Of a stretch of DNA of 58,846 bases, positions 25,679 to 33,186 are shown piece after piece. The number at the start of each line of letters is the position of its first letter. Within the stretch, counting starts at the first letter, position 1. Both the position numbers and the translations under genes were made by a program. Origin of the DNA: Armatimonadota bacterium (lineage in GTDB: Bacteria; Armatimonadota; UBA5829; JAUSEB01); contig JAUSGG010000166.1 in assembly GCA_030649165.1 (NCBI GenBank), forward strand, positions 1-58,846, read 5' to 3'. The notes below the pieces were generated by a model. The model saw nothing but the letters and a program-made list of their open reading frames with translations. It was not told where the DNA came from and searched no databases.

Positions 25679-26056
25679 TCTGTACGTTCCTCCTATTGGC
25701 TTTGTTCCTCCCGCTCCTTCGCTCCGAAGTCCGTCCCAAATGGGAGCCCGGATTCCGGTCCGGAACGGTGCGTAATACGCAGACCCTTTAGTGTATCACA
25801 GGCTGGTTGGGGAAGGCAAGAAAAAAAGGAGCCGTTGTAGTTGCAGAGCGAGTTTTGAACCGCTGAGACGCTGAGGGCGGAGTGAGGCGCTGAAGGGGTG
25901 TGTGGCGTCGGGGTTGAAACGCGAAAGGTGGACGGCGAGGGCCATGTTGCGGGAACGGTATGATTGAATGAACCTCTCGGATTTCGCCAGAGTCCCGCGG
26001 GACAGTGGCGCTGAATGATGGTATAATGTAATGTAATCATCTCCTGGGAGGTTTGT
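25679..26056. repeat. Divergent intergenic region upstream of rpsB and vapBC
   Basis: No RNA leader for rpsB is recognised. A GAACCGCTGAGACGCTGAGG...GAGGCGCTGAA repeat lies at about 25857-25895 (family also at 28651 and 31694). CTCGGATTTCGCCAGAGTCC near 25976 matches the family at 28784 and 31999. The vapBC -10 box TATAAT is at 26022-26027 with GGGACA 17 bases upstream. Confidence 0.6.
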
Positions 26057-26296
26057 ATGGTCCGAACTCAGCTTCAGATAGATGACGACGTGTACGAGGC
26101 GTTGCGCGTGAGGGCGCACCGGGAGCGCAAGTCGATGTCAGCCGTGGCGCGCGAACTGTTGCGCGAGGGGCTAAGTGGCCCTAAGTCACATCCGCCAAGA
26201 GGTCAACGCAAATTCGCGTTCGTGGCATCCGGGACGTCTGGAAGAGCAGATATATCGGTCCGACACGATGATGCCCTTGCTGAGGACTTCGCATGA
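26057..26296 (+). CDS. VapB-type ribbon-helix-helix antitoxin
   Basis: A 79-residue protein with an N-terminal ribbon-helix-helix domain (VRTQLQIDDDVYEALRVRAH followed by KSMSAVARELLREGL), which binds the operator, and a disordered C-terminal toxin-binding tail. GGGAGG lies upstream of the ATG, and TATAAT at 26022-26027 is a likely -10 with a TAATGTAATGTAAT tandem just after it. It overlaps the PIN toxin by four bases. Autoregulation is expected from the family. Confidence 0.88.
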   Translation: MVRTQLQIDDDVYEALRVRAHRERKSMSAVARELLREGLSGPKSHPPRGQRKFAFVASGTSGRADISVRHDDALAEDFA

Positions 26297-26694
26297 TCTT
26301 CCTCGACACGTCGGGCATATTCGCTTTGGCGGCCCGTGACGATCAGAACCACAAAGTCACCAGACGAGCTTTTGATGCCGCCCTGAAAGCTGATGAGGAG
26401 TTTCTCGTACACAGCTATGTCCTGGTCGAGGCGGCTGCGCTGCTCCAAAAGCGGCTCGGAATCGACTCGGCTCTCACCTTTCTACAAGAAGCCCGCGACT
26501 TTCAAGTCACGTGGGTCACGCCCGAACTCCATCAGGACGCGGTGGCCTATCTGGAGAAGCGGCGGCGTTCCAAGATCAGCCTTGTGGACGCGGTCAGCTT
26601 CCTGGTGATGCGCGCGGAGAAGGTGGAGCGATATTTGGGATTCGACCGGCATTTCGCGGAGGAGGGGTTTCGGGCGGTGGAGGGTGCAGAGTAG
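26293..26694 (+). CDS. VapC-type PIN ribonuclease toxin
   Basis: A 133-residue PIN-domain toxin. The acidic site is complete: Asp5 (IFLDTSGIFAL), Glu46 (VLVEAAALLQKR), Asp99 (SLVDAVSFLVM) and Asp118 (LGFDRHF). By family precedent it cleaves tRNA or rRNA. It is translated from an ATGA overlap with the VapB antitoxin. Third PIN/RelE-type toxin locus in the window. Confidence 0.92.
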   Translation: MIFLDTSGIFALAARDDQNHKVTRRAFDAALKADEEFLVHSYVLVEAAALLQKRLGIDSALTFLQEARDFQVTWVTPELHQDAVAYLEKRRRSKISLVDAVSFLVMRAEKVERYLGFDRHFAEEGFRAVEGAE

Positions 26695-27772: not shown

Positions 27773-27887
27773 AACAAGTCAGTTCCCGCGGCGCCTGGTG
27801 GCCATTACCACGTCCCGCGGGAACTGGGTGGGGTGTAGGCGTAGGTTGTATGCGCGGAGGCCGTTCCCGCATCAGGATGGCAAACCG
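27773..27887. repeat. CCCGCGGGAACTGGGTGGGG repeat, copy 1
   Basis: GTTCCCGCGG...TGGCCATTACCACGTC...GCGGGAACTGGGTGGGGTG followed by GGAGGCCGTTCCCGCA (about 27780-27870). A diverged copy is at 31900-31995. No gene. Confidence 0.65.
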
Positions 27888-28514
27888 CTACCATGTGGGT
27901 GGCTTACTGAAGCTGCCGTGCGCATCGGTCAGCGTTGCGGGGAACTGGCATGCTGCGAGCGTCGCGGGCTTTATCGTTTTGAACTCATCCGCTATCTGGC
28001 GCAACTGCCGGCTCGGCTTATCTTTGTGGGGATTGATCACGATTATCCGTTTGCCCAGTTCCAGTTTGGCAATGCGGATAGGCTCCAGAAGATCGGAGTC
28101 ATTTGAGACAACCGCCGCTACGTCATAGACATCCTTGATCCCGTCCCATAGCAGGTGCGTGGCAAGGTTCACGTCTGAACCTTTTTCCTCGGTCCTTAAA
28201 ACCCGGGCGGTTGCGGGGCCGCCGGGTTGGCATGTAGCAAGCAACGCAGTCACTTCGTGCGTAAGGAAATGGCCGTACACGATTGATAGGTTTGGAATTG
28301 TCGATAACGCTCTGAGGTACGTTTGTTGCCTGACAGGCTGGTTGGGATCGTGCGGCTGTGCGCTGACCCTGGCGGTGTAATACTTGATGTTGAGGACAGA
28401 GTGGCCGGGCAGCATGAACTTGCAGAACTTCCCGACGTCCAGCCAACGGTAAGGTGTGCCTTTTGTCGCTCCGTAGTATAGGTTGAAGCCATCGATATAT
28501 GCGCAGGTTCTCAT
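27888..28514 (-). CDS. NYN-domain (LabA/DUF88-like) nuclease
   Basis: A 208-residue NYN/PIN-like protein. CAYIDGFNLYYG at residues 3-14 supplies the first aspartate; EKGSDVNLATHLLWDG the second; VSNDSDLLEPI and LGKRIIVINPHK complete the fold. NYN proteins are predicted metal-dependent RNases acting on structured RNA. The ATG at 28514 is taken because the fold starts at once; an earlier start would run through a terminator hairpin. It has no Shine-Dalgarno and lies 16 bases after the T-run of a promoter-hairpin-terminator element, so expression may depend on read-through. Confidence 0.88.
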   Translation of the reverse strand: MRTCAYIDGFNLYYGATKGTPYRWLDVGKFCKFMLPGHSVLNIKYYTARVSAQPHDPNQPVRQQTYLRALSTIPNLSIVYGHFLTHEVTALLATCQPGGPATARVLRTEEKGSDVNLATHLLWDGIKDVYDVAAVVSNDSDLLEPIRIAKLELGKRIIVINPHKDKPSRQLRQIADEFKTIKPATLAACQFPATLTDAHGSFSKPPTW

Positions 28515-28529
28515 AGTAGGCGTGTCAAT

Positions 28530-28601
28530 AAAAAAGCAAAGCCGCCCGCAAGCGGCTTTGCACCCTGCCACCTAAGCGACAGGGGGGATGACTGTTCTTA
28601 C
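28530..28601 (-). ncRNA. Candidate structured leader/small RNA, copy 1
   Basis: Transcribed from the promoter at 28608-28635 (minus). The RNA would have a first stem CCCTGTC / GGCAGGG (28563-28569 with 28578-28584) and a second stem AAAGCCGC / GCGGCTTT (28538-28545 with 28552-28559) followed by six U residues, a textbook intrinsic terminator. Length about 72 bases. A second copy at 31788-31858 keeps both stems while loop bases differ. Not matched to a riboswitch class I know. Confidence 0.65.
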
Positions 28602-28607
28602 GGTAAT

Positions 28608-28635
28608 ATCATACCACGTCCGCCAAAGATGTCAA
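28608..28635 (-). promoter_or_regulatory. Promoter of structured RNA copy 1
   Basis: On the minus strand TTGACA (28630-28635), 16-base spacer, TATGAT (28608-28613). The same boxes and spacing occur in copy 2 at 31865-31892. Confidence 0.7.
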
Positions 28636-29001
28636 CCCATTTCGGGGTGGCTGAACCGCTGAGACGCTGAGGTCGGAATGAGGCGCTGAAACGCGAATTG
28701 CGCGAAGGGGAAATAGGAGCGGGAAGAGACTTCAGCGGGTTCAGTATGCTTCAGCGTCTCAGCGGTTCAGACTCACATCCCTCGGATTTCGCCGGAGTCA
28801 GTTCCCGCAGGATAGTACCCTGGTAAAAATACCGGTTTTTGTGGCCTCCACGCTCAGCCGCGAAAAGATTCTCTTGACAAGTGCGGGAGAGGGTAGACAA
28901 TGTCCATAGTATATTGGTGACGCCGAGCGAGCGTATTGCGGGACGGAAGCAGGCAATAGTCGCCGCGAGCGTCACAATCCTACGCAACCGAGGGGAAAAG
29001 G
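28636..29001. repeat. Upstream region of first SUMF1-like gene
   Basis: GAACCGCTGAGACGCTGAGG at about 28652-28671 and its inverted form CTTCAGCGTCTCAGCGGTTC at about 28749-28768 flank 80 bases, an inverted pair. CTCGGATTTCGCCGGAGTCA (about 28784) through the promoter resembles 31999-32147, the upstream region of the third paralogue. Confidence 0.65.
28874..28901 (+). promoter_or_regulatory. Promoter of first SUMF1-like gene
   Basis: TTGACA (28874-28879), 16 bases, GACAAT (28896-28901). It is positioned like TTGACA-N16-TATCAT at 32120-32147 before the third paralogue and lies in the same duplicated upstream segment. Confidence 0.55.
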
Positions 29002-30297
29002 ATGAAGAAAGTGTTTGCAGTAACGGCAGCCGCAGCGCTGCTCTGCCTGGGCGGAATCGCTGAGGCAGTAGTCATGGAGACGGTCACTGTGGGCGACCCC
29101 GGGAACGTCGCGGATACGCGTAACGGGACTCCCGGTTATGGCTCAGTCGGCTACACGTACAACATCGGCAAATACGAAGTTACAGCCGCGCAATATACGG
29201 ATTTCCTGAACAAAGTGGCAAAGACCGACATATACGGACTGTACAATATTTATATGGATACGGTCAACGACCATTACGGTTGCAACATCAAGCGCAGCGG
29301 CGTCTCCGGTAAATACAGCTACAGCGTAGCCCCTGATCGGGCAAACAGGCCAGTGAATTTGATCAGTTTCTGGGACGCCTGCCGGTTTGCCAACTGGCTC
29401 AATAACGGACAGCCGACCGGGTTTCAGGATGCCTCCACCACCGAGCGTGGCGCATACACTCTAGATGGTTACAACGGCGATGACGGCCACTATATCCAGC
29501 GAAATACCGTAGCGAAGTGGGCAGTGACAAGCGAGGATGAGTGGCACAAGGCGGCTTACTACAAGGGTGGCGGAACCAATACCGGTTATTGGGACTACCC
29601 GACCCAAAGTGATACGGCTCCGAGCAACGTGGGCGCCGACGGCTACACCGACCCGGGCAACCATGCCAACTATTACAAGAATGATAGCTTCACTATCGGT
29701 TATCCTTACTATCGGACGAATGTCGGCGAGTTCGAGAACTCGGCAAGCCCTTGTGGCACGTTCGATCAGGACGGCAATGTCGAAGAGTGGAACGAGGCAT
29801 TAGTATCTGAGGGTTCCACTACCGATTACGCTTTTCGTGGTCTGCGTGGTGGTTCATACAACGGCCTCGACTACTACGCCAAAGCTTCGGTTCGCTACCA
29901 TTCCTACCCTTCGGGCTGGGGCGAGGGCTTCGGGTTTCGTATTGTCGCCCTATCACCGCCTGTCATACCTATCATCATTGACATAAGGCCGGGAAGCGAC
30001 CAGAACAACATAAACCTCCGTTCGCGTGGGGTAGTGCCCGTAGCCGTCCTGACCACCGACGAATTCGACGCGAGCAGCATCGATCCGGCTTCCTGCCGGT
30101 TCGCCGGCGCCGCGCCATTGCGCTGGGCGATGCAGGATGTGAACCGGGACGGTCATCAGGACCTCATACTGCACTTCGACACACAGCATCTCAATCTCTC
30201 CGCGGATGCGGTTACCGCCACCCTTACTGGAGAGACGCGGGATGGTCAAGCGGTTGAGGGGACGGACAACGTGCGAATAGTCCCGCCTGCCAGGTAA
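29002..30297 (+). CDS. Secreted SUMF1/FGE-fold protein with IDIRPGS C-terminal module
   Basis: 431 residues. A signal peptide (1-22, AAAALLCLGGIAEA) leads a formylglycine-enzyme-like (SUMF1) domain with IGKYEVTAAQYTDFLN, NLISFWDACRFANWLNN, AVTSEDEWHKAAYYKGG and GFGFRIV. The catalytic cysteines of true FGE are absent, so a binding or structural role is likelier than sulfatase activation. From about residue 325 a second module, IDIRPGSDQNNINLRSRGVV to the end, is a beta-rich unit common at the C-termini of surface proteins. First of three tandem paralogues; just after its stop lies a remnant of the second paralogue's 3' end. Confidence 0.88.
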   Translation: MKKVFAVTAAAALLCLGGIAEAVVMETVTVGDPGNVADTRNGTPGYGSVGYTYNIGKYEVTAAQYTDFLNKVAKTDIYGLYNIYMDTVNDHYGCNIKRSGVSGKYSYSVAPDRANRPVNLISFWDACRFANWLNNGQPTGFQDASTTERGAYTLDGYNGDDGHYIQRNTVAKWAVTSEDEWHKAAYYKGGGTNTGYWDYPTQSDTAPSNVGADGYTDPGNHANYYKNDSFTIGYPYYRTNVGEFENSASPCGTFDQDGNVEEWNEALVSEGSTTDYAFRGLRGGSYNGLDYYAKASVRYHSYPSGWGEGFGFRIVALSPPVIPIIIDIRPGSDQNNINLRSRGVVPVAVLTTDEFDASSIDPASCRFAGAAPLRWAMQDVNRDGHQDLILHFDTQHLNLSADAVTATLTGETRDGQAVEGTDNVRIVPPAR

Positions 30298-30300
30298 GGC

Positions 30301-30336
30301 ATGCTCTGCGTCCAACGTCGTGAAGCTGCAGTAGGG
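30301..30336 (+). pseudogene. Remnant of a SUMF1-paralogue 3' end
   Basis: The bases just beyond the first paralogue's stop match the last 12 codons and stop of the second paralogue (31654-31690), including GTCGTGAAGCTGCAGTAGGG exactly and the flanking ATGCTC...GCGTCC. The reading frame is closed here by the upstream stop. Confidence 0.75.
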
Positions 30337-30485
30337 GTTTCTTTCTAAATACAAGATTTCACCAAAGGGGACTGGACACCGCCCCAGAGATAAGCTCTGT
30401 ACATTGAAATTTGGATTCTTGTCACCGATCCGACTTTGGCGGAAATCCAAATCGGTAAGCAGGATTCTCAAAGGGGGAGAAAAAG

Positions 30486-31688
30486 ATGAAAGCGCTGGTA
30501 TTCGTAGTAATGGCAGTCCTTGCGTTGCTGTGCCTGGGCGGCATCGCTCAGGCAGATGTGTTCAACATGCCGCCGGGCCTGACGAACCTGGAAACGGTCG
30601 GCGTTGGCAACGCGGGAAATGCGGCCGACGCCACCGGCTACGGCTCGGTGAGCTACAACTACAACATCGGTAAGTATGAAGTCACCGCCACGCAATACAC
30701 CGAGTTCCTCAACGCCAAGGCAGCCACCGACCCCTACGGGTTGTACAACACCTCTATGTGGAGCGATTCATACTACGGCTGCAAGATTCAGCGCAGCGGC
30801 AGTTCGGGCGGCTACACCTACAGTGTGGCGTCGGATTACGCGAACAGACCGGTGAACTACGTCAGCTACTGGGACTCGCTTCGTTTCGCCAACTGGCTTG
30901 GTAACGGGCAGGGAAATGGGGACACGGAGAACGGCGCATACACCCTGACACCCACGGGCATCGCGAACAACACTATTACGCGCAACGCCGGCTGGAAGTG
31001 GGCAGTGACCAGCGAGGATGAGTGGTATAAGGCCGCTTACTACAAGGGAGGCAGCGCCAACGCCGGGTACTGGCTGTATCCCACCAAAAGCAACACATCG
31101 CCGGCCAACCAGGTGTTGCCCACGGACCCCGGCAACAGCGCCAACTATTACGTCGGCGGCTATAGTATAGGCAGTCCGTATTACCGGACCAACGTTGGTG
31201 AGTTCGAGAACTCAGCGAGCGCGTATGGCACGTTTGACCAGGGTGGCAATGTCTGGGAGTGGAACGAGGCCATGACAGGCGCTTATCGCTGCCTGCGCGG
31301 TGGTTCGTTCTACACCGACGGCGGCTACTACCTCCAAGCTTCGTCCCGCTACAACGACTACCCGACGGACGAGGACACCGGCGTCATCGGATTCCGTGTT
31401 TCCGAAGTTGTTCATGCCTATGGTATCAACAACAGGGCTGCATCTGATCCGATTATGTCCACCGCCTCCGCCAGATTCAATTTTAGAGTATGGGGCAAGG
31501 TGACGATTCTGGTTAGCGGTAACTCGTTCACCGTTGATGACGGCTCCGGTATGCCTGTAAAGGTGGTAGCTCCCGGATTCAGCGGCATCCAGGACGAGGA
31601 TTATGCCTGCGCTTTGGGTGCGTTCTCCGGCGAAGGCTCGAACCGGGTGTTGAATGCTCAAGCGTCCGACGTCGTGAAGCTGCAGTAG
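30486..31688 (+). CDS. Secreted SUMF1/FGE-fold protein with OB-like C-terminus
   Basis: 400 residues; signal peptide 1-22 (AVLALLCLGGIAQA). The SUMF1 domain is closely similar to its neighbours (IGKYEVTATQYTEFLN, NYVSYWDSLRFANWLGNG, GNVWEWNEAMTG, LRGGSF, GFRVSEV), without the FGE cysteine pair. After about residue 310 it carries a different module: FRVWGKVTILVSGNSFTVDD, then GSGMPVKVVAPG, ending LNAQASDVVKL, resembling an OB-fold. GGGGGAG precedes the ATG. It may be cotranscribed with the first paralogue (188-base gap). Secreted, presumably envelope-associated. Confidence 0.88.
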   Translation: MKALVFVVMAVLALLCLGGIAQADVFNMPPGLTNLETVGVGNAGNAADATGYGSVSYNYNIGKYEVTATQYTEFLNAKAATDPYGLYNTSMWSDSYYGCKIQRSGSSGGYTYSVASDYANRPVNYVSYWDSLRFANWLGNGQGNGDTENGAYTLTPTGIANNTITRNAGWKWAVTSEDEWYKAAYYKGGSANAGYWLYPTKSNTSPANQVLPTDPGNSANYYVGGYSIGSPYYRTNVGEFENSASAYGTFDQGGNVWEWNEAMTGAYRCLRGGSFYTDGGYYLQASSRYNDYPTDEDTGVIGFRVSEVVHAYGINNRAASDPIMSTASARFNFRVWGKVTILVSGNSFTVDDGSGMPVKVVAPGFSGIQDEDYACALGAFSGEGSNRVLNAQASDVVKLQ

Positions 31689-31787
31689 GGGGTGAACCGC
31701 TGAGACGCTGAGGTCGGAGTGAGGCGCTGAAACGCGAATTGCGCGAATTGCGCGAAGGGCGCGAAGGGTGGATTGCGGGGGGTCAGT

Positions 31788-31858
31788 AATTAACAAAGCC
31801 GCCCGCGAGCGGCTTTGCGCCCTGTCACCGAAGCGACAGGGGGGATGACTCTTCTTAC
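31788..31858 (-). ncRNA. Candidate structured leader/small RNA, copy 2
   Basis: Near-identical to 28530-28601. Stem one is CCCTGTC / GACAGGG (31820-31826 with 31835-31841), fully Watson-Crick here where copy 1 has a G-U wobble on the minus strand. Stem two is AAAGCCGC / GCGGCTTT (31795-31802 with 31809-31816). The U-run is poor in this copy (GTTAATTA) and no minus-strand gene follows, so any product would be a free RNA. Confidence 0.6.
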
Positions 31859-31864
31859 GATAGT

Positions 31865-31892
31865 ATCATACCACGTCCGCCAAAGATGTCAA
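31865..31892 (-). promoter_or_regulatory. Promoter of structured RNA copy 2
   Basis: Minus strand TTGACA (31887-31892), 16-base spacer, TATGAT (31865-31870), as in copy 1. Confidence 0.68.
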
Positions 31893-32119
31893 CCAAGAGT
31901 TCCCGTAGCGGCTGGCTATCTCCACGTCCTGCGGGAACTGGGTGGGGTGTGGGCGTAGGGTTTGTGGGCAGAGGCCGTTCCCGCAGGATAGAACCAGCCC
32001 CTCGGATTTCACCGGGGTCAGCTCCCGCGGCGGCTGGTGACCATTACGGACCTCACCTGCCGTCCCAGTAGAAATACCAGTTTTTCGGGGAACACACGCT
32101 CAGTTCACTGTATGACACC

Positions 32120-32147: not shown

Positions 32148-32214
32148 GCCGGTGATAGCAACCGTCCACAAGAGGCGGTGTGGTGCTTCGCCCCAAGAGG
32201 GCAGGAGGAAAAGG

Positions 32215-33186
32215 ATGAAAAGGGTCTTTGTGGTAACGGCAGCGTTCGCGCTGTTGTGCTTGGGGGGGATTGTTCAGGCTGTTACCATCGACACAGTTGC
32301 CGTGGGTAACGCCGGCAATGCGGCAGACACCACCGGCTACGGTTCGGTGGGCTACAACTACAACATCGGCAAGTACGAAGTCACCGCCGGACAGTACACC
32401 GCGTTCCTCAACGCCAAGGCAGCCACTGACACGTACGGGCTGTACAGCACGAACATGGCGGGCACGTACGGCTGCCAAATCCAGCGCAGCGGCGGTTCGG
32501 GCAGCTATACCTACAGCGTGGCGTCGGATTACGCGAACAGACCGGTGAACTACGTGAGCTATTGGGACTCGCTGCGTTTTGCCAACTGGCTCAATAACGG
32601 CCAGGGCAACGGTGACACGGAGACCGGCGCATACACTCTGGGCGGCTACAACGGCATTGATGGCCGCGCCATCCAGCGCAACGCCGGAGCCAAGTGGTTC
32701 CTCACCAGCGAGGACGAGTGGTATAAGGCGGCTTACTACAAGGGCGGCGGAAACAACGCCGGTTACTGGGATTATCCCACGAGCAGCAACACTGTCCCGG
32801 GTCGTGACATGACCGACGCCTCTGGCAACAACGCCAACTATTATACTGATGGCCCCCTGATCACCCCGTACTACCGGACCGAGGTCGGCGAGTTCCAGAA
32901 CTCCGACAGCCCTTACGGCACGTTTGATCAGGGCGGCAACGTCTGGGAGTGGAACGAGGCCATTATAGACCCGGGTTCGTTTTACGCCGATCGCGGCGTG
33001 CGCGGCGGTTCGTGGAATAGCGGCGGCACTGACGGCCTCCTGGCATCGTACCGCCCCAGCATAACCCCGACGTACGAGCACGATGGTTTCGGGTTCCGCG
33101 TTTCCGAAGTTCCTGAGCCGTCTTCGATTATCGCATTGGCTTGTGGGGTAGTAGGACTCTTGGGCATAAGACGGCGCAGGGCGTAG
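32215..33186 (+). CDS. Secreted SUMF1/FGE-fold protein with PEP-CTERM tail
   Basis: 323 residues from the ATG at 32215, which has AGGAGGA a few bases upstream; signal peptide 1-21. The SUMF1 core matches its two neighbours (IGKYEVTAGQYTAFLN, NYVSYWDSLRFANWLNNG, GNVWEWNEAII, VRGGSW, GFGFRVSEV). The C-terminus VPEPSSIIALACGVVGLLGI followed by RRRRA is a full PEP-CTERM sorting signal (PEP, one membrane helix, basic end), implying exosortase-dependent sorting to the cell surface. No exosortase gene is in the window. FGE cysteines are missing. Confidence 0.92.
   Translation: MKRVFVVTAAFALLCLGGIVQAVTIDTVAVGNAGNAADTTGYGSVGYNYNIGKYEVTAGQYTAFLNAKAATDTYGLYSTNMAGTYGCQIQRSGGSGSYTYSVASDYANRPVNYVSYWDSLRFANWLNNGQGNGDTETGAYTLGGYNGIDGRAIQRNAGAKWFLTSEDEWYKAAYYKGGGNNAGYWDYPTSSNTVPGRDMTDASGNNANYYTDGPLITPYYRTEVGEFQNSDSPYGTFDQGGNVWEWNEAIIDPGSFYADRGVRGGSWNSGGTDGLLASYRPSITPTYEHDGFGFRVSEVPEPSSIIALACGVVGLLGIRRRRA

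Follow-up and report, generated by a model that had tools for sequence, protein, structure and literature searches.

Two RNA units and an NYN gene in an Armatimonadota contig

The window analysed here, a 58,846-nucleotide stretch of DNA from an Armatimonadota bacterium, holds two promoter/two-hairpin units at positions 28524-28640 and 31782-31894, both on the minus strand and 90% identical to each other across ~117 nt; a genome-wide search of the 5.48-Mb genome found no further copies. The first of these (copy 1) is followed, after 16 nt, by the start of an NYN-domain gene on the same strand, which had been overlooked in the original prediction. The features, with the basis for each in parentheses, are as follows.

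27888..28514, minus strand: gene for a predicted NYN-domain ribonuclease of 208 aa, HEC-09 / phrog_7929 family, proposed toxin/effector (homology, model)
28608..28635, minus strand: copy 1 promoter, TTGACA-N16-TATGAT (sequence; promoter enrichment across the family)
28531..28594, minus strand: copy 1 RNA, with single-stranded 5′ AUCCC, stem 1 and stem 2 (covariance-model match)
28563..28584, minus strand: copy 1 stem 1, CCCUGUCGC-UUAG-GUGGCAGGG (fold, covariation, sequence)
28530..28561, minus strand: copy 1 stem 2, GCAAAGCCGC/GCGGCUUUGC plus U-run, terminator-like (fold, covariation, sequence)
31865..31892, minus strand: copy 2 promoter, TTGACA-N16-TATGAT (sequence)
31788..31851, minus strand: copy 2 RNA, orphan (covariance-model match)
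31820..31841, minus strand: copy 2 stem 1, CCCUGUCGC-UUCG-GUGACAGGG (fold, covariation, sequence)
31793..31818, minus strand: copy 2 stem 2, without a clear U-run after it (fold, sequence)

The two units, each with its promoter-like pair and two stems, lie where the original prediction had placed them. At the DNA level stem 1 reads CCCTGTCGC-TTAG-GTGGCAGGG in copy 1 and CCCTGTCGC-TTCG-GTGACAGGG in copy 2, and from these sequences the reported difference between a U-G pair in copy 1 and a U-A pair in copy 2 is genuine; stem 2 is GCAAAGCCGC/GCGGCTTTGC. The minus-strand folds are far stronger than those of shuffled sequences, with z scores of -3.7 (copy 1) and -4.4 (copy 2) and none of 200 shuffles as good. 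The second stem had been described as a terminator, which fits copy 1 with its TTTTTT run, but in copy 2 this run is replaced by TTAATT and the terminator is consequently weak. Both RNAs match the covariance model R2 strongly (67.9 bits, E 3.4e-15 for copy 1; 68.7 bits, E 2e-15 for copy 2), and in both the distance from the end of the -10 box to alignment column 5 is 17, longer than the usual family spacing. A tblastn search revealed neither an NYN gene nor an NYN remnant downstream of or near copy 2, which is directed towards the 3′ end of a SUMF1-like gene. Copy 1 together with its NYN gene makes up a complete module, and copy 2 is an orphan RNA.

A structured RNA family linked to NYN genes

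BlastN comparison of the element with 150 relatives gave no match because the RNA sequence diverges too fast, and the family was found through a scan for the stem-1 pattern combined with covariance models. A degenerate stem-1 pattern applied to one genome per species yielded four matches, of which one, in a Dehalococcoidia MAG, has a promoter, stem 1 and stem 2 followed by an NYN gene, two (L035 and L036) are orphan RNAs, and the last (L034, Streptomyces) was rejected as a chance palindrome. A covariance model built from five sequences then detected the RNA in 56 of the 301 genomes searched in the Dehalococcoidia MAG's phylum (E ≤ 0.01); 47 have it at E < 1e-4, and the RNA also occurs in the window's own phylum, in other phyla, in prophages and on plasmids. 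Some candidates were set aside: the matches L083-L091 in the window's phylum, at about 28 bits or less, seem to be due to chance, and the Thermus locus L101 has hairpins with no convincing RNA match.

The consensus RNA consists of a 5′ AYCCCC, a first hairpin (CCC...UUCG...GGG), NGCGA, a second hairpin (GCC...GGC), UCUGC and a U-rich end. In an alignment of 38 sequences, which had been fitted to the covariance model, 97.5% of cells are paired and 15 of the 18 pairs show double-sided change; none of 500 shuffles did as well and six slid versions came nowhere near. A MAFFT alignment made independently from 40 sequences, prophage copies included, gives double-sided change in 16 of 17 pairs. The orientation had originally been argued from covariation at one pair, which is thin evidence, but the 38 family members now provide it amply. 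The element had also been called unrecognised, and in agreement with this an Rfam scan matched no family at either gathering or relaxed thresholds; Rfam 15 is without a match, an earlier description in Weinberg 2017 may exist, and the family is apparently both large and undescribed.

Sigma-70-like promoter pairs scoring at least 9/12 directly precede 58% of 78 copies, as against 8.6% of simple shuffles of the same bases. The usual spacing from the end of the -10 box to alignment column 5 is 5-9 nt in these copies, which sets the start of transcription at AYCCCC or immediately upstream of it. The strong covariation and the consensus promoter, with the 5′ end at or near AYCCCC, thus bear out a small RNA in the orientation first proposed, and the covariance search of related genomes that had been suggested has produced a covarying family. 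A U-run of at least 5 follows the RNA in about 40% of copies; copy 1 and the proteobacterial plasmids have a clear terminator.

We also searched the 301 genomes with an NYN protein and joined the resulting list to the RNA matches. The RNA is present in 47 genomes, NYN in 48 and both in 38 (Fisher p 2.5e-30, a value which ignores phylogeny). Adjacency, a count independent of phylogeny, shows the same association, with 54 of the 80 strong RNA matches adjoining a single NYN family; 52 of these are sense-upstream of NYN with gaps of 3-180 nt (median about 21-23) and two are convergent behind it, with the remaining 26 of the 80 being orphans. For 20 NYN genes seemingly lacking the RNA, an unfiltered search located it beside 10 strongly and beside four weakly. 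All 12 further good RNA matches in the window's phylum lie next to NYN, which in some cases is visibly broken, and both further matches in the phylum of L035 lie next to NYN. RNA and NYN sequence distances are correlated (Mantel r 0.41, p < 2e-4, 0 of 5000 permutations), as expected if the module is inherited together. No protein antitoxin gene was seen to be conserved beside NYN, only the RNA.

The arrangement of the two components varies. Several prophages, plasmids and chromosomes depart from the usual sense-upstream order. A Mycobacterium prophage and a Paenarthrobacter plasmid have the RNA after NYN and convergent with it, L184, L185, L187, G304 and G354 share this layout, and in L183 the RNA is divergent from NYN; most convergent and divergent copies have a TTGACA box of their own. 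Whole RNA units occur in tandem at L042, L043, L053, L067 and L137, each with a separate promoter-like pair, and many loci, this window included, have a single unit before NYN. Two orphans precede NYN genes from which the middle has been deleted, leaving the first 12-16 and last 34-63 residues. The variety of orientations, the separate promoters and the orphans together indicate that the RNA is an independent gene.

The NYN protein and its mobile settings

The window's NYN protein matches Pfam NYN (E 4.7e-11) and is a full-length member both of PADLOC HEC-09 (PDLC04163, E 2e-43) and of phrog_7929 (E 2e-67), the latter without an assigned function. An AF2 model (pLDDT 93.2, pTM 0.86) has the NYN ribonuclease domains of MARF1 as its best annotated fold matches, the top match being an uncharacterised Vibrio protein; a sequence search of the PDB found no relative, although the fold search did find some. 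Asp8, Asp114, Asp139 and Asp141 are invariant across 58 NYN sequences, and from the homology, the modelled fold and these acidic residues we predict that the partner gene encodes an endoribonuclease. HEC denotes Hma-embedded candidate; the class was identified through guilt-by-embedding, and some of its members have activity against phages (PMC12988326).

NYN relatives are present on 444 plasmids, among them plasmids of 3.4-4.6 kb from E. coli, Salmonella, Serratia and Klebsiella, and at 59 prophage or viral-contig loci; of the best 28 of these 59, about 25 have the RNA beside NYN. BlastN of plasmids and phages with the RNA alone gave weak partial matches only, and the one inspected, in Pannonibacter, has no NYN gene; viral scans for the exact stem pattern found nothing, although prophages do carry the module. 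In Salmonella pUA1144 (L095) the NYN gene is preceded by an array of 33-nt hairpin repeats and a perfect intrinsic terminator, and the array-terminator-gene layout is the one used for defining type III loci (PMC8860590). At more distant plasmid loci NYN is preceded by different hairpins and terminators, with GATTAAGTT common to several of them, and these look like further candidate RNA subtypes.

A possible RNA-inhibited nuclease module

We think that the RNA and the NYN ribonuclease probably constitute a type III-like toxin-antitoxin or abortive-infection module, with the RNA as the putative antitoxin. In favour of this are the linkage to NYN, the convergent, divergent and tandem copies, the orphans that outlive NYN, the addiction-like plasmid and prophage settings, the array on pUA1144, the HEC-09 match with its NYN fold and invariant aspartates, and the lack of antisense complementarity to NYN mRNA; binding, inhibition and purpose are inferred from this anatomy and distribution. 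The RNA's own promoter would supply an excess of a short primary transcript of about 65-75 nt, comprising the 5′ AYCCCC, a UUCG-capped hairpin and a second hairpin that would often act as a weak terminator, so that occasional read-through would lead to production of the NYN ribonuclease; at convergent loci the ribonuclease would be made from a separate promoter. The folded RNA would bind the NYN protein directly and keep it inactive, possibly after being trimmed by it, and when the RNA supply drops, through phage transcription shut-off or plasmid loss, the long-lived nuclease would be freed to cut RNA. Toxicity of the protein and an anti-phage or plasmid-maintenance role may follow from such a scheme, in which a PIN-like NYN nuclease would stand in ToxN's place. 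Some observations run against it: most loci have one RNA unit or separately promoted units and not one repeat array, and in one survey HEC-09 was correlated with phage susceptibility and not resistance (PMC12447246). Because many copies lack a strong U-run, control by read-through is unproven.

About two thirds of the RNAs (52 of the 80) are sense-upstream of NYN and near its start codon, often by 8-25 nt, which also speaks against the module and is what would be seen if the RNA were a cis-acting leader, serving either as an attenuator in the 5′ UTR or as a feedback site at which NYN binds or cuts its own mRNA; the terminator-like stem 2, with U-rich sequence after it in many copies, agrees with this. 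An attenuator was indeed one of the roles originally suggested, and it suits the sense-upstream copies only. The convergent, divergent, tandem and orphan copies keep their own promoters and the same structure, copy 2 of the window has no downstream gene, and such copies, together with the internal deletions of NYN, make a purely cis-acting leader insufficient; we regard it as unlikely, and autoregulation may exist alongside a role in trans. That the RNA instead serves an NYN ribonucleoprotein as cofactor or guide in attacking foreign RNA, and is not an inhibitor, would accord with the correlated distances of RNA and NYN, and an NYN nuclease reportedly processes CRISPR RNA elsewhere (PMC11346440). 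The RNA has no variable guide segment, however, with the 5′ AYCCCC and both hairpins conserved throughout, and orphan RNAs persist in the absence of NYN, so that such a role appears quite improbable.

A type I-like antisense RNA, pairing with the NYN mRNA to prevent its translation, could be imagined from a small promoter-proximal RNA beside a likely toxin gene, convergent with it at some loci. Most copies are nonetheless on the sense strand, and predicted pairing is no better with the RNA's own NYN start region than with those of others (means of -29.8 and -31.1 kcal/mol, permutation p 0.96), making this explanation very doubtful. The original prediction had the element mobilised along with a duplication of SUMF1 genes; a further reading makes it a functionless sequence duplicated with them. 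The distances given in that prediction are accurate, the two copies lying 367 and 314 bases upstream of SUMF1-like genes. The family-wide partner is nevertheless NYN and not SUMF1, promoter and structure are conserved across several phyla, and the sequence separating RNA from SUMF1 is not conserved, being 54% alike as against 50% in shuffles; the SUMF1 neighbours are bystanders whose link to the RNA is incidental, and we give the idea of a functionless duplicated sequence, which the comparative data contradict, almost no credence.

The proposed RNA-NYN module resembles ToxIN, CptIN, TenpIN and AbiQ in its order of promoter, non-coding RNA, terminator (clear at some loci) and ribonuclease gene, in its plasmid and phage settings, and in the true tandem repeat array of pUA1144. 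It differs in that the RNA is usually one two-hairpin unit or several separately promoted units, in that convergent and divergent layouts occur, and in that the nuclease is NYN (PIN-like) and does not have the ToxN fold, which is common to the ToxIN, AbiQ, CptIN and TenpIN families. Since NYN domains give the best annotated fold matches, the protein is not a member of the ToxIN superfamily, and the type III status of the module depends on the putative inhibition of protein by RNA. VapBC and other PIN-domain toxins have a PIN-like nuclease fold related to NYN, but their antitoxin is a protein whereas the putative one here is an RNA. By analogy, the nearest proven parallel is AbiF-RCd22, in which an RNA upstream of a toxic protein acts in cis and in trans through direct RNA-protein binding (PMC12373285). 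Both have a structured RNA and terminator just upstream of a defence-linked protein, but AbiF is an Abi_2 protein tied to Cas13 ancestry and not NYN, and the RNAs are unrelated in sequence and structure; the RNA described here does not match RF03085, the AbiF-RCd22 family, nor does its partner protein match Abi_2. HEC-09 (PDLC04163) and phrog_7929 are listed as single-protein models, and an RNA partner is absent from the sources examined; none of the papers searched links NYN with type III toxin-antitoxin systems.

It seems to us somewhat likely that there is a new class of RNA-inhibited NYN (PIN-like) toxins, carried by chromosomes, prophages and minimal plasmids in six or more bacterial phyla, with HEC-09 as an RNA-protein pair and AYCCCC-UUCG RNAs, 33-nt hairpin arrays and GATTAAGTT as its subtypes. 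The module itself ranges from uncultured phyla to E. coli plasmids of 3.4 kb. To our knowledge protein-binding RNA antitoxins are known for very few protein folds, and a second nuclease fold, unrelated to the first and paired with an RNA of its own, would widen the RNA-antitoxin class. HEC-09, a defence candidate treated as one gene, would then be explained as an RNA-protein pair, and if cloned without its RNA it would appear lethal or inactive.

Repeats and duplicated genes around the two RNA copies

The two copies of the hairpin RNA unit lie among other repeated sequences. The intergenic repeat GAACCGCTGAGACGCTGAGG occurs three times in direct orientation in the window, with one further arm inverted, and it adjoins both RNA copy 1 and RNA copy 2, flanking them on opposite sides. 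A 73-nt repeat with two copies (86% identity) is situated shortly beyond the 3′ end of the NYN gene and shortly upstream of RNA copy 2, and is possibly a trace of the origin of copy 2.

Repeats and neighboring genes in the window
25853-25910, GAACCGCTGAGACGCTGAGG, direct copy
28649-28706, GAACCGCTGAGACGCTGAGG, direct copy
31690-31747, GAACCGCTGAGACGCTGAGG, direct copy
28751-28770, GAACCGCTGAGACGCTGAGG, inverted arm
27799-27871, +, 73-nt repeat
31913-31985, +, 73-nt repeat
26293-26694, +, PIN-domain (VapC-like) gene
29002-30297, +, SUMF1/FGE-like gene 1 of tandem trio
30486-31688, +, SUMF1/FGE-like gene 2
32206-33186, +, SUMF1/FGE-like gene 3, PEP-CTERM motif at its end

SUMF1/FGE-like genes 2 and 3 match at 85-89% in long blocks, whereas their similarity to gene 1 is 63%, making them by far the closer pair.

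Toxin-antitoxin-like neighbors

The PIN-domain gene lies ∼1.2 kb from the NYN gene. Two orphan RNAs (lacking an adjoining NYN gene) in other genomes have neighboring genes that appear to be of the protein toxin-antitoxin kind, as judged by eye from translations: RHH and PIN genes at locus L035 (RNA at 1892-1955) and a PemK/MazF-like gene at locus L046 (RNA at 1501-1563).

Plasmid loci with distant NYN genes

Distant NYN relatives on Pseudomonas and Xanthomonas plasmids (H67, H68) are annotated as NicB / 6-hydroxy-3-succinoylpyridine 3-monooxygenase, an unexpected annotation for proteins that resemble NYN. Five loci on Enterobacterial and Xanthomonas plasmids (L230, L232, L233, L235 and L236) have in common a GATTAAGTT-like motif, which lies within DNA rich in hairpins ahead of a perfect terminator and a distant NYN gene; these GATTAAGTT-type loci probably represent further RNA subtypes.
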